DNA from: Paraglaciecola marina
Lineage (GTDB): Bacteria; Pseudomonadota; Gammaproteobacteria; Enterobacterales; Alteromonadaceae
Direction: 5' to 3'
DNA: 64,000 nt
Assembly (NCBI RefSeq): GCF_004360155.1
Contig: NZ_SAIS01000008.1
Location: forward strand, 1 to 64,000
Below are positions 58,518-63,725 of this stretch, in pieces (the first letter of the stretch is position 1; each line of letters opens with the position of its first letter). The position numbers were made by a program, and so were the translations under genes. Under the pieces are notes generated by a model. The model was not told the DNA's origin, did no database searches, and worked only from the letters and a program-made list of their open reading frames with translations.

Positions 58518-59231
58518 CTAGTATTTATACAAGACTGCATTTATGAGAGTTTCTTCACGAGATCTTGGGTCTTCAGTTTTACCTGTTAATGTTTCCCAAA
58601 GCCCTAAATCTGCCCGTGACCACCATAAAAAGGGTCTAGATATTTGTTGTTCCTGAATATTGAAGCCAGTCTTTTCAAGCAAGCTTAAATACTCTAAGTC
58701 TGTTTTTTGTACATGCATAGGATGTCGAAATAACACTCTAATGACCATTGAATGGATATACCTGCGGCAGGACTCAGCAAACATTAAGCAGCCACCAGGT
58801 TTGAGCACTCTGTAGATTTCTTTAATGGCAGACTCTTGATCAACTATATGATGGAAAGTTTGATGACAAAACACCATATCCACCGAATGCTCATCCAGGT
58901 CAATTTGTGCCGCATTGTTAATTAAAAATTGAATATTAGATTTGCACTTTTTAGCATTAACATCCGCTTTGTTTATTAAATCCGGGTCCACGTCTAAACT
59001 AATAATAGTATCTGGAGAGAAACGAGCATCTAACTCAACAAGGGAATGCCCAAACCCTGAACCGATATCTAAAATAGTGTCAAATTCTTTAGGTTTATCT
59101 GCTGGAATAAGTGTTTGCAAATCATTGAGAGCCCTTTGTAAAACATGAATCAACCAAGTATCAGTATTCAGAAACCAGTCTCCAAATTTGGTTTCTCTAA
59201 CCCATGCTTTTTTTATATCTACTTTTGCCAA
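58518..59231 (-). CDS. Class I SAM-dependent methyltransferase
   Basis: The 237-residue Rossmann methyltransferase of the UbiE/Methyltransf_11 type has motif I TILDIGSGFGHSLVELD (about 50-66), an acidic loop ISLDVDPDLI, and motif IV VDMVFCHQTFHHI (about 118). It ends with VLKPGGCLMFAE-like strand 6. It starts 15 bases after the hybrid kinase, and so probably belongs to the same transcript as the borosin-like genes. It may methylate a different substrate, such as a peptide side chain, lipid or small molecule; nothing in the sequence identifies it. Confidence 0.82.
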   Translation of the reverse strand: MAKVDIKKAWVRETKFGDWFLNTDTWLIHVLQRALNDLQTLIPADKPKEFDTILDIGSGFGHSLVELDARFSPDTIISLDVDPDLINKADVNAKKCKSNIQFLINNAAQIDLDEHSVDMVFCHQTFHHIVDQESAIKEIYRVLKPGGCLMFAESCRRYIHSMVIRVLFRHPMHVQKTDLEYLSLLEKTGFNIQEQQISRPFLWWSRADLGLWETLTGKTEDPRSREETLINAVLYKY

Positions 59232-59246
59232 AGTTAAGTCCTATAT

Positions 59247-62200
59247 TTATGAGGTTTTGAGTTTTAATGTTTTGGTAACTTCGAGGGCTGCTTTGTGAAA
59301 TTCGATAACTAATTCCATTGTGCTAGCTGTTAATTTTACTTCTTTCTCTCGTAATATATCTAGGACTTGATTAGCTAGATTTGCGAGCTGATTAGCACCA
59401 ATGTAGGCAAGAGACGGGCTATATAAGTGTATGATTTTATTTATTTTATCTATATCACTATCTTTAATAGCTTCAGTAAGCTGATGTAGACTGCTTTCTA
59501 ATTTAATAAAATCATTGACTAGTTCCCAATAGGAGTGATCATCTAATCTCAGTTGTTGTTTGGCTACGGCGAAGTCAACGTGCGTTAGAGACAGAGCTTT
59601 GAAGTGTGAAGCGCTAACTTTAAGTGGCGTAAAGTTAGTGACTTCACTTTTAGCTGATAATACGTTAATTAATACTTTATATAAGTAGTCTGGATCGATC
59701 GGCTTAGTAATGTGAGCATTCATGCCCGCATCTAAGCTTTTATTAATATCACCAGCCATTGCATGGGCTGTCATGGCGATAATAGGTGTTTTTAGGTGTA
59801 ATTCATTGCGTATTTTGTAAGTTACCGTCAACCCATCCATTACGGGCATTTGAATATCCATTAAGATCAATCCATATCGCAAAGGTGCCTCTTTGAGCAT
59901 TTGTAAAGCAATTTGGCCATTTTCAGCCACTGCAATATCAGCATTAGTGTCAGCTAAAAAGCCTTTAGCAACCTTACGGTTTAATTCATTATCTTCAACC
60001 AATAAAATATTTATATCACAAAGGTTAGGAATTTTTGGGGCCCCTATCTTTTTGGTAGAGGGTATTTTCTGGATTTTATTGGTTAATCTAAGAATCGCAT
60101 TCAACAAATTACTGCTGTTAATTGGCTTTTGTAAATAAGCGTCAAGGCCGAGAGGTTTACCTAATTCTTGTAGGGTATCCATATCGTAAGCGGAGAGCAT
60201 TATTATCTGCGGTTTGGGGGAAAATGATTGTTTAATAATTGATGCTACTTCGATACCATCAATGTCTGGCATTTTCCAATCCAAAATTATTAATTGATAT
60301 GGAGAGTTTTCTTCAACGGCTGAACGGATTTTGTTTATTGCTTGGGTTCCATTTTCCGCAACATCGGGAGTTATATCTAATCTGAATAAAGCATTGGAAG
60401 CCGCCTGTCTAGAAAGCTCAACATCATCCACTAATAACACCTTCATCATGGATAAGTGTTCTTCAGATAGGCTTTTGGTTTGTTCTCCATGAATTGCTTC
60501 TGTTACTTTTATTGTAAAATAAAATGTTGAGCCTTGACCTAATAGGCTTTCTGCCCAAATCTCTCCCCCCATTAATTCTACTAATTGTTTACTTATGGTT
60601 AGACCTAACCCAGTTCCGCCAAAGCGCCGAGTGGTAGACTCATCTGCTTGTGTAAAAGGGTCAAATAGTGTGTCAAGGTGAGATGACTTGATACCAATGC
60701 CCGTATCTTTTACTGCAAATTCAAGTAAAACTTTAGACTCTGAATACTTTTTGTTTACTGACACAGACACCACGCCATGATGAGTAAATTTGACTGCGTT
60801 ACTAAGTAAGTTGTTGAGTACTTGTTGAATACGCAAGGCGTCACCTTTTAATAAGAGGGGCACATCTCTGGCAATGTATTCAATTAGTTCAAGGTCTTTT
60901 TTTTGTGCTTTAAGAGTGAGTAAGCGCATGGCTTGATTGACCACTTTGTCTAATTCAAATTCGACACTCTCAATATGCAAATGACCAGCTTCAATTTTTG
61001 AAAAGTCTAAAATATCGTTAATTACTACTAGTAAAGTATTAGAAGACTCTTCTATTTGTTGCAAATTGGTATCTTTTTGATGCTGACTTAAGGATGGTTT
61101 TCGGTTTAACTTTGTTAAGCCAATAATAGCATTAATAGGAGTGCGAATTTCATGGCTCATTCGAGCTAAAAATTCTGATTTGGCTTCCGAAGCTTGTTTG
61201 AGGTTAGACGAGTACTCTCGTAGCACACGTTTTTGCTTGCTAGAACGCCAATACATAAATAGGAGCAAAATGATAATAGCGCTGCTGAGTCCAATAAAAA
61301 TTAGCTGATAGATATGTTGTTGCTGGTGTAATTGTTGAGATAGCTCCAAATCAGAGATTTGTTTATCTTTCTGCGCAAGCTCTAAACTCGCACGGCTGAA
61401 GGCCAGTTGTTCAGCTTGTATAGCATTAAAACTTTTTTCTTTGAGGGCTTCATACTGTTTGAAATATTTAAGAGCCATGCTTGGTTCTGATATCATTTCA
61501 TAATAGTTGGCTAGCCCTTTAAGTGCTCGTCCTTGATAGTTACTGAAATTGTACTTATTTGCCTGAATCAGTGCTTGTTGAAAAAGAGGTAAGGCTATAG
61601 TTTTTTGATTATCCTTTAATAAAATTTCCGCTTTTAAGAGGCGAAAGTGTAGCTTACCAAGTGTAGTAACATTGCTCTTCGTTAATTCAAGTTGCTTATT
61701 TATATAAGATAAAGCAACTTTGTAGTTTTTTAATTTTGATTCAGCAAGAGCTGCATAAGAATATATATCGACACGTTCTTCTTCTGGGGTGTTTAGTATT
61801 TGCAGTATTTTAGTCGCACGTACACTGGCTTCTTTGTAGCTCCCTTGTTTGATTAAGCCTGAAATAACAAAGCTATAACCTTGCTCTTCATAATATAGAT
61901 TTTTCTGGACGAGTGCTTTTTGTACTAGAGTTTGGCCTATATCAATTAAACTGTCAGCCCAATCATCATTTTTTGCATACACATTCCCAATGGCTTGTAG
62001 GTTATGAAGTACATATTTGCTATTAAGCTGTTCGTGTAATGTCAAGCTCTTTGTTAATAACGCCAAAGCATCAGCATCAAAATCTAACAAAAAATTAATA
62101 ATACCTTGTTTCCGAAAGGCTTCAGCGAGCTGTAATTGGTTATCAGTGTTAAGGGCTAATTTTTCGGCTTTTTTTGCTTTAGCGTAGGCGTCGTTTAAAT

Positions 62201-62447
62201 TATGGTTGAGGAGGTCTACGTGGGCTTGTAGGTTTAGCAGACGAGATTCTTGGTTATTATTTCCTGCTTTTTTTATTAATATTGTTACTTCAGATAATAA
62301 ACTTTCTGCCAAGCTGATATTTACTAATAAATTAATTTCGGCTTTATCTAACAAGGCTTTAACTTCAGCATCATTTGCAAAGGCTGGTAGACAGTTTAAT
62401 ACCGACCCTAGTAGACATAAGACTACTAGGTATCTAAATTTATTCAT
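59247..62447 (-). CDS. Exported-sensor hybrid histidine kinase with TPR domain, two receivers and a degenerate Hpt
   Basis: The 1066-residue protein has a signal peptide (cut near AFA-NDA, residue 25), a periplasmic array of TPR-like helices (about 30-375), one membrane helix (381-400) and a HisKA domain with His432 (MSHEIRTP). The HATPase (about 535-648) has [11 protein letters not shown] and GGTGLGL. Receiver 1 (about 668-790) has Asp723 and receiver 2 (about 812-930) has Asp864. The C-terminal Hpt-like domain (about 955-1060) keeps His1007 but reads HLYSP where HxxKG is usual. It starts 24 bases after the precursor gene on the same strand, so it is likely co-expressed with the borosin-like genes. 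Its ligand and output regulator are unknown. Confidence 0.92.
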
Positions 62448-62471: not shown

Positions 62472-62681
62472 CTAATTAGCGTGAGATATTTGTATGGAGT
62501 CTGCTCCTTCAGCTTCTGCCCTTTGAGCCATTGCTTTTGTGTCATTTTTTACACATATTGCAACGTCTTCTGGTGTCAAACCACAACTTTCAGCCACAGC
62601 TTGCGGGTCGGCTAAATATTTCTGTTTTAAAGCTTCATCTTTATCTAATTCTATTAAAAATGCGATTAAAGGATCTGTCAT
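62472..62681 (-). CDS. Borosin-like RiPP precursor peptide (SonA-like)
   Basis: The 69-residue peptide is a candidate substrate of the methyltransferase encoded 0.2 kb upstream. Its first ~50 residues form a helical leader or binding domain with the pattern ALKQKYLADPQAVAES-CGLTPEDVA, as in the borosin-binding domain of SonA from Shewanella. A short linker (QRAEAEGADS) leads to the tail IQISHAN, close to the xISHGN-type core that SonM backbone-methylates in SonA. I use the ATG at 62681 (GGAG 6 bases upstream); an in-frame ATG at 62693 lies upstream of that site. The sites of N-methylation would be the hydrophobic residues of the tail, by inference. The codon pattern looks native. Confidence 0.85.
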   Translation of the reverse strand: MTDPLIAFLIELDKDEALKQKYLADPQAVAESCGLTPEDVAICVKNDTKAMAQRAEAEGADSIQISHAN

Positions 62682-62697
62682 TTTATTCTCCATTGAT

Positions 62698-62848
62698 TTA
62701 ATGTATTAACGATTGCGATAGGTTTTGTTCTTTTTCATTAGCTGTTAAGCCAAAATCTTGTGCCACACTTTTTAGATCTGCCATATTTTTGTCTTAACAC
62801 ATCATTTTTATCGATTGCTATCAAGGATGCGATTAAAGGGTCATTCAT
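62698..62848 (-). pseudogene. Decayed second copy of the borosin-like precursor
   Basis: Starting at ATG 62848 the frame reads MNDPLIASLIAIDKNDVLRQKY, close to the intact copy (MTDPLIAFLIELDKDEALKQKY). A net loss of two bases near 62780 then shifts the frame. In the shifted frame the similarity resumes as ADLKSVAQDFGLTANE, matching ADPQAVAESCGLTPED, but it ends at SLIH without any tail resembling the core. The unshifted frame stops after 36 codons. It is a frameshifted, core-less relic of a tandem duplication, lying between the methyltransferase and the intact precursor. Confidence 0.85.
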
Positions 62849-62881
62849 AATATTATCCAGTGATTAATATATTAACGATTG
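62698..62881. repeat. Direct repeat bracketing the decayed precursor copy
   Basis: The 18-base sequence TTAATGTATTAACGATTG at 62698-62715 recurs as TTAATATATTAACGATTG at 62864-62881, one base different, 166 bases apart. The similarity continues into the ribosome site and start codon of each precursor copy. It marks the unit of tandem duplication. Confidence 0.85.
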
Positions 62882-62900
62882 TTATTGGGGTTGCTTTTTA

Positions 62901-63725
62901 TTAGCCGTTGTCTGCGGATAATTCTTGTTTAAAGGTATCTGGTGTTAGGCCAAATTTTGCCATAGTTTCAGTATCATATTCTGGTAAACCCAAGCCCGGA
63001 ACCACTAGGGTACTGATGGTATTAGGCACAATATGGCCGAGTTCATTTAAAGGTATTTCATCAATTCGCGGCGCTACCAAGGGAATAGTCGCGGCCTCGT
63101 AAACAATCACTTTGTGATCAGCCGGGTAATACTTAAGTAACTCATCCATTAATACAGCTAAACCCGGGTGTTCGGTTTTATTTTCAGGATGATTAAACTC
63201 TGCGATACAGCCAATCTGCCAGATTATTTGTAACATATGTGGGTCAATTGAATAACGACGGAATAAAAATTGAGTCGCTTCGTAAGACTGACAACCAAAA
63301 CGAGCTGGGTCTAGTCCTAAGTCGGCTACAAGGCAGTCTTCGGCTGATATTCCCGGTAACATTCTTACGCTAAACCCTTTATTACGGAGTTCATTAATAG
63401 CATCATGGGAAGGGTCAACAAATACCCCAGGGTGGCCATAGAAAGCTGCGACCACTCTTTTACCTGATTCTACTTCATCGACGATACGCTGTTTCATTTT
63501 CTGGTAAGTGACTAAACGTGAAGTATTAACGTCATAGAGGTCTCGTAACGAGATGGTGTTGCTATTAATATTTTTTAAATTGATAAACGCAGACTGAGTA
63601 ACTACAGACAATACGATATCAGCATTTTTAAGGACACTTTCTGTGATGAGAGTCATTTGCCCTGAGAGAGTAATTCCCGTGCCTACAATCGTTAATGAGC
63701 CTTGTTTGTTAGGGCTGTCTGCCAT
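62901..63725 (-). CDS. Borosin-type peptide alpha-N-methyltransferase (SonM-like, tetrapyrrole-methylase fold)
   Basis: This 274-residue SAM-dependent methyltransferase should methylate backbone amides of the adjacent precursor. The N-terminal LTIVGTGITLSGQMTLITE is the tetrapyrrole-methylase start. The active-site region matches borosin enzymes such as OphMA and SonM: Tyr64, Arg70 and Tyr74 in DLYDVNTSRLVTY, then AAFYGHPGVFVDPSHDAI with Tyr96. GISAEDCLVADLGLDPARFGCQSYEA follows, and TISTLVVPGLGLPEYD ends the second domain. The length fits a split enzyme without fused core. The last 20 residues (AKFGLTPDTFKQ) resemble the precursor's GLTPEDV segment. It is the first gene of the minus-strand operon. 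Confidence 0.9.
   Translation of the reverse strand: MADSPNKQGSLTIVGTGITLSGQMTLITESVLKNADIVLSVVTQSAFINLKNINSNTISLRDLYDVNTSRLVTYQKMKQRIVDEVESGKRVVAAFYGHPGVFVDPSHDAINELRNKGFSVRMLPGISAEDCLVADLGLDPARFGCQSYEATQFLFRRYSIDPHMLQIIWQIGCIAEFNHPENKTEHPGLAVLMDELLKYYPADHKVIVYEAATIPLVAPRIDEIPLNELGHIVPNTISTLVVPGLGLPEYDTETMAKFGLTPDTFKQELSADNG

Follow-up and report, generated by a model that had tools for sequence, protein, structure and literature searches.

A 64,000-nt stretch of Paraglaciecola marina DNA (contig NZ_SAIS01000008.1, positions 1 to 64,000; here called the window) carries what, judged by sequence, is almost certainly a split borosin pair of enzyme and precursor, followed directly by a gene for a TPR hybrid sensor histidine kinase that is very probably a functional member of the same borosin unit. 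The original prediction had placed a split borosin locus at 62472-63725; its enzyme and precursor stood, and the third gene, the sensor kinase lying just outside those limits, had been overlooked. Type IV split borosins are a known kind, and the recurrent sensor gene is new in organisation. The three-gene unit has its observed basis in gene identities, gene order, recurrence, co-occurrence and co-variation, and we lean slightly towards reading the N-methylated C-terminal peptide as the sensor's ligand, a peptide signal whose output can be exchanged. The order on the minus strand is SonM-type gene (63725-62901), precursor (62681 or 62693 to 62472) and kinase (62447-59247), with the following features:

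62901-63725, minus strand: SonM-type peptide backbone alpha-N-methyltransferase, 274 aa, active site Y64, R70, Y74, Y96
62738-62848, minus strand: decayed second precursor copy (its first reading frame), between the SonM gene and the intact precursor
62472-62693, minus strand: SonA-like precursor, 73-aa ORF, likely start 62681 giving 69 aa, core IQISHAN at the C-terminus
59247-62447, minus strand: TPR hybrid sensor histidine kinase, 1066 aa, beginning 24 bp past the precursor; layout: signal-like segment 4-20, helical TPR sensor, transmembrane segment 382-398, HisKA, HATPase, two receivers, weak Hpt

The enzyme and its precursor

A search against borosin methyltransferases, which had been proposed as a check, gave SonM as the best PDB sequence match of the 274-residue enzyme (7ltc_A, E-value 1.4e-60), with the fungal OphM and MroM enzymes at 1e-44 to 1e-49. 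SonM residues Y58, R67, Y71 and Y93 aligned with Y64, R70, Y74 and Y96 of the window enzyme, which also has the YGHPG motif, and this alignment confirmed the initial description of a tetrapyrrole-methylase-fold enzyme with a borosin active site. Mutating these four SonM residues is described as lowering activity or SAM binding (PMC8429565). Pfam assigned the window enzyme to TP_methylase (E-value 1.5e-18), which could be taken to favor an ordinary siroheme or cobalamin methylase beside a chance small ORF, but the fold is common to both groups and we find that alternative scarcely credible. The enzyme scored far under the curated cut-offs of the specific tetrapyrrole models (YabN, 47.3 bits against 525; CysG, 29.8 against 400; CobA/CysG C-terminal, 22.4 against 185), so a CysG/CobA-type identity was rejected and no placement among the cobalamin or siroheme methylases, the outcome that would have counted against the original prediction, was obtained. 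The searches already contradict this alternative, as CysG matched at only 2.9e-7 against 1.4e-60 for SonM, the borosin residues are conserved, and the profile of the adjoining precursor matches SonA.

The precursor, reported beforehand as a 69-residue peptide with an IQISHAN tail adjoining the enzyme, was present at that place, and the second ATG (62681) is the better start since GGAG lies just upstream and the same Met occurs in 20 of 22 aligned relatives, the other two (L004 and L015) having been trimmed by hand. As a single sequence the precursor matched SonA weakly (E-value 0.011), and a profile built from 23 precursors matched SonA at 2e-11. In the tail alignment IQISHAN of the window corresponds to LVISHGN of SonA, as expected from the claim that the core differs from that of SonA, and the two core Ile residues are numbers 63 and 65 of the 69-residue form, the same numbers as L63 and I65, which are the methylated residues of SonA (PMC8429565). 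By this analogy N-methyl sites are predicted at Ile63 and Ile65. AlphaFold modeled the precursor as five helices with a disordered tail (mean pLDDT 80), which together with the profile match is what a five-helix borosin binding domain would show; SonA chains were the top-ranked PDB structures for this model, but with Foldseek E-values of 0.15 or worse and VIA Z-scores of at most 7.0, and these modest structural scores make the sequence profile the stronger evidence for SonA kinship. We saw no signal peptide in the window precursor. Elsewhere, one related locus (L031, 5982-7451) encodes a precursor in which a single leader precedes many tandem copies of an AAIIKGYAPD-type core, a candidate multi-core borosin.

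Between the SonM gene and the intact precursor, the ORF at 62738-62848 matched the intact precursor by phmmer with an E-value of 2.4e-4, and aligned as DNA the two scored 115, against a highest score of 49 in 300 shuffles. This copy has lost 2 bp, which shifts the frame, and there is no core after the shift. Searches of the window genome found a single SonM-type enzyme and one clear precursor match, all other precursor matches having E-values of 0.029 or worse.

Enzyme and precursor are thus separately encoded and adjacent, which is how type IV split borosins are defined (PMC8429565). Taken together, the enzyme match, the conserved active site and the precursor profile lend the proposed SonM/SonA-type pair good support, and backbone N-methylation of the core would be expected in the window species. 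Two lesser remarks of the original prediction also agreed with what we found: the ORFs around the locus include no obvious protease or exporter, and a Glaciecola-like bacterium fits the genus Paraglaciecola.

A TPR sensor gene recurs behind the precursor

The third gene has the HisKA, HATPase_c and receiver domains of a hybrid histidine kinase. Its sensor was modeled as a confident TPR superhelix (pLDDT 91.4) whose nearest solved folds were LGN (Z-score 28) and the peptide quorum sensors NprR (24.8) and Rap (24), scores to be read with the tendency of repeat folds to score high and with the fact that TPR folds have many uses, so that having one in common shows no function. By hydropathy, the TPR part sits between two hydrophobic segments in the kinase of the window, as it does in 60 of 71 sensors; with the signal-like segment 4-20 and the transmembrane segment 382-398 on either side, the TPR part of the window kinase is likely periplasmic.

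When the window was compared with related loci L002-L027, the only genes recurring at the enzyme were SonM, the precursor and the large kinase, other matches being distant paralogues, and the genes flanking the precursor-kinase units changed from locus to locus. All 21 of the loci L002-L022 had a TPR-like hybrid kinase 4-132 bp after the precursor and in the same orientation. Two further neighbors in the window were considered as operon partners and rejected, each being absent from the cassette in L002-L027: a class I methyltransferase behind the kinase (58518-59231), with homologues in five other congener genomes at other places, and a quinone-oxidoreductase-like gene before SonM, for which we saw no shared site across congeners.

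The wider set comprised the best 80 of at least 585 relatives, and leans towards the kin of the window because only the best matches were kept. We classed these 80 loci by their record titles as 53 gammaproteobacterial (including L043, L069 and L071, which are labeled Proteobacteria only), three alphaproteobacterial, 13 cyanobacterial and 11 others, and counted sensors with local HMMs on stop-to-stop frames, using TPR models built from the cassette sensors. Of the 53 gammaproteobacterial loci, 41 had a TPR-like sensor with an output domain on the strand of the enzyme and no more than 2.5 kb away (25 with histidine kinase output, the HK form, and 16 with GGDEF output); four others had a TPR gene with no recognized output, three of them at contig ends, and eight had no sensor gene, some of these with the precursor ahead of the enzyme. 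By the same criteria of distance and strand, one of the three alphaproteobacterial loci had the HK or GGDEF form, and none of the 13 cyanobacterial or 11 other loci did. A sensor was found within 600 bp of 39 of 80 SonM genes vs two of 317 control genes from the same loci (Fisher p 4e-29; the control excludes sensors, anchors less than 500 bp from the enzyme and sensors less than 2.5 kb from the enzyme, and the loci are non-independent).

In Shewanella, all six loci examined (L114-L119) have a GGDEF-form gene directly behind the precursor, encoding proteins of 580-598 aa in which Pfam GGDEF was confirmed for L114, L117 and L119; the SonM of L114 is 98% identical to the solved SonM, on which the assignment of these loci to Shewanella is based. 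The GGDEF form also occurs in several Alteromonadaceae and Xanthomonadales-type loci. Across 14 GGDEF-type sensors, C156 and C186 (numbering of the L114 segment) were invariant (14/14) and could form a disulfide. With one locus taken per genus from 20 family genera, a same-strand sensor within 2.5 kb was found in 18, the exceptions being L140, where the precursor-sensor pair is divergent, and L136, which has none; the precursor model recognized a precursor in 12 of these 20 loci. The Pfam TPR cut-off was reached by 11 of 20 scanned sensor proteins, with the other nine weaker and L103 having no TPR match, while the output domains of the scanned proteins were Pfam-confirmed. At L082 (4000-6200), promoter-like sites fell below the shuffled mean and no terminator-like site split the unit. 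No exporter, protease or immunity gene recurred around the units in the neighborhoods compared.

Several related loci had other arrangements. In L145 (6388-10496) a single SonM-like gene comes first, then five ORFs that match the precursor model, and a lone TPR-GGDEF gene last, and L015 and L017 have two tandem SonM-like genes ahead of one precursor and one kinase. In L097 and L098 SonM is directly preceded by a gene for a 2200-aa Ser/Thr kinase-AAA-GAF-histidine kinase, with TPR hybrid kinase and response-regulator-like genes behind the precursor. In the cyanobacterial loci L028, L034 and L062 a large Ser/Thr kinase and AAA protein is encoded behind the precursor, and L034 and L062 also encode a TPR protein after the enzyme. 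In L036 (1383-3185) a precursor resembling the borosin binding domain is fused to the end of a protein starting with a GGG-type FAD-binding motif, and a separate gene of similar appearance stands ahead of the precursor in L048 and L052 (motif read by eye).

Distribution and history of the unit

Nine of 22 Paraglaciecola genomes have a SonM-like enzyme, six of them of the window type, and the full-length kinase was found in exactly those six (Fisher p 1.3e-5, a test that ignores kinship); kinase matches in the remaining genus genomes covered the catalytic half only. Within the family, 20 of 295 genomes have a window-type enzyme (E-value 1e-75 or better), and a full-length kinase occurred, among the matches listed and with two candidates per genome scored, in 18 genomes, of which 17 also have the window-type enzyme. 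In the other three genomes with a window-type enzyme (G060, G099 and G260) the kinase encoded at the locus (L094-L096) is a diverged one. Genome G249 has a precursor and full-length kinase (L093), and no SonM gene was found in that genome.

A tree of 112 enzyme sequences, made by a quick method with eight near-copies omitted, contains an 81-row clade (SH-aLRT 96) that holds all 70 rows labeled HK or GGDEF together with six labeled 'none' and five 'TPR only'; the other 31 rows of the tree have none. The HK label needs four changes within this clade (at least three on starred branches only), so the sensor output appears to have been exchanged more than once. The window enzyme clusters with two Alteromonas enzymes and one Aliiglaciecola enzyme (support 100), apart from the Paraglaciecola enzymes, a position that fits transfer or old paralogy. 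When searched against the window genome, the profile of GGDEF-type sensors matched the borosin kinase at an E-value of only 0.037 and another protein better (2.7e-13), which leaves common descent of the two sensor types without support; the HK and GGDEF sensor profiles do align over 350 columns (hhalign E-value 4e-29), as any two TPR domains may.

Precursor and sensor stay together and vary together

The precursor and sensor genes remained adjacent where the enzyme had been relocated, namely in L014 (order precursor-kinase-enzyme), L079 and L120 (the last carrying the genus code of a Kangiella genome), and the precursor-sensor pair was doubled behind a single enzyme in L076, L081 and L133; L043 was left out of the latter list owing to overlapping pieces, and L125 was treated as the same record as L076, and L094 as L014.

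In 20 HK-type loci the core was the most variable part of the unit, median identities being 10% for the core, 23% for the sensor, 37% for the leader, 53% for SonM and 63% for the kinase domain. Core distance correlated with sensor distance once SonM and kinase distance had been removed (r 0.47-0.52, p 0.0005, 20 loci; r 0.33-0.36, p 0.004-0.014, in a set thinned to 12 loci), and no correlation of core with kinase distance was seen after removing SonM and sensor distance. Leader and sensor also co-varied (r 0.45, p 0.001). Given leader distance, the core-sensor co-variation was gone in the thinned set (p 0.14-0.20), and the co-variation may therefore stem from the whole precursor.

Proposed function and alternatives

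In the mechanism that we propose, the SonM-type enzyme would bind the helical leader of the precursor and N-methylate backbone amides of the core, at Ile63 and Ile65 by analogy with SonA; the short methylated tail would be released, reach the periplasm and bind the TPR superhelix of the adjacent hybrid kinase, altering the output of the phosphorelay. Methylation in this species, release, export, binding and the direction of the response are steps that we infer, and export is the weak point of the model, as the sensor looks periplasmic, no signal peptide was seen in the precursor and no exporter or protease recurs. Because sister loci pair the precursor with a TPR-like sensor ending in GGDEF, peptide and sensor would be the constant part of the unit and the output its exchangeable part. 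We are evenly divided on a broader proposition, that gammaproteobacterial split borosins are backbone-N-methylated peptide signals and not antibiotics, each with its own TPR receptor whose output has been swapped between phosphorelay and c-di-GMP more than once, in which case SonM/SonA would form the ligand side of a c-di-GMP signaling unit.

Regulator genes often adjoin biosynthetic genes, and the sensor gene belongs to one run with those of the enzyme and precursor, so the kinase or cyclase might instead sense some other cue and only control production of a peptide that acts elsewhere. We consider this fairly unlikely, since the output switches between HK and GGDEF while the TPR-like sensor and precursor stay paired, reordered loci keep precursor and sensor together, doubled units double exactly that pair, and the co-variation of precursor with sensor exceeds what enzyme and kinase account for. 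A peptide aimed at some other cellular protein or at a competitor, with the kinase as a self-protection or stress gene, seems quite unlikely to us. One borosin, that of Lee 2024, reportedly inhibits a peptidase. The fungal omphalotin is described as nematocidal (PMC11285071), which also counts for such a target, but the outputs here are signal enzymes, the nearest genes are not common to the units, and no exporter or immunity gene recurs in the neighborhoods compared.

The peptide tail need not be the active part: the borosin binding domain, or the complex of SonM with the precursor, might act on the signaling protein, for example from the cytosolic side. Export would not then be needed, and the co-variation of leader with sensor, from which the effect of the core is inseparable in the thinned set, speaks for such an arrangement; the hydrophobic segments on either side of the TPR part, seen in the window kinase and most other sensors, would put that part outside, however, and we regard this reading as very unlikely.

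If the preferred reading, in which the methylated peptide is the ligand of the sensor, is true, then a modification valued by drug designers, backbone N-methylation, would be part of a bacterial signal, and receptors could be read from the genome beside each peptide. No type IV pathway had yet been tied to a final natural product according to PMC8429565, and the recurrence of a sensor behind the precursor, Shewanella included, suggests a concrete role as peptide ligand and receptor.

Comparison with known systems

In the open-licence PMC literature searched we found no account of a linkage between borosins and sensors and no co-mention of borosins with diguanylate cyclases or tetratricopeptides, and borosins and histidine kinases were mentioned together in one paper, in unrelated passages; Imani 2022, Cho 2022 and Lee 2024 lie beyond that literature and may mention neighbors. 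The words 'diguanylate', 'GGDEF' and 'operon' are absent from the main text of PMC8429565.

Rap and NprR, the RRNPP receptors of Bacillus, resemble the window kinase in having a TPR superhelix as sensor (for the model, NprR Z-score 24.8, rmsd 4.5, 310 residues aligned) and, as we interpret it, a short peptide ligand encoded beside the receptor. RRNPP receptors reside in the cytosol, and their peptides are unmodified and re-imported. The window sensor differs in that hydrophobic N-terminal and transmembrane segments flank its TPR part, it forms part of a kinase, and its peptide would be backbone-methylated. A plausible template for the borosin sensor is RcbAB of Vibrio vulnificus, in which the TPR part of a TPR-GGDEF protein is described as repressing the cyclase and a partner protein as relieving this (PMC12282931); the partner in that case is itself a TPR protein instead of a RiPP precursor. 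OphMA and dbOphMA of fungi belong to the same methyltransferase family (E-value about 1e-49) and have a helical clasp like the precursor leader, but they combine enzyme and core in one protein.

The closest known system is SonM/SonA of Shewanella oneidensis (PMC8429565), which shares with the window locus the separate adjacent enzyme and precursor, the four active-site residues, the five-helix leader and a similar core (I-x-I-S-H in the window, L-x-I-S-H in SonA), and Shewanella loci likewise have a TPR-like signaling gene behind the precursor. The enzymes are only about 42% identical and the cores differ, and the sensor gene of the window encodes a hybrid histidine kinase, that of Shewanella a GGDEF cyclase.
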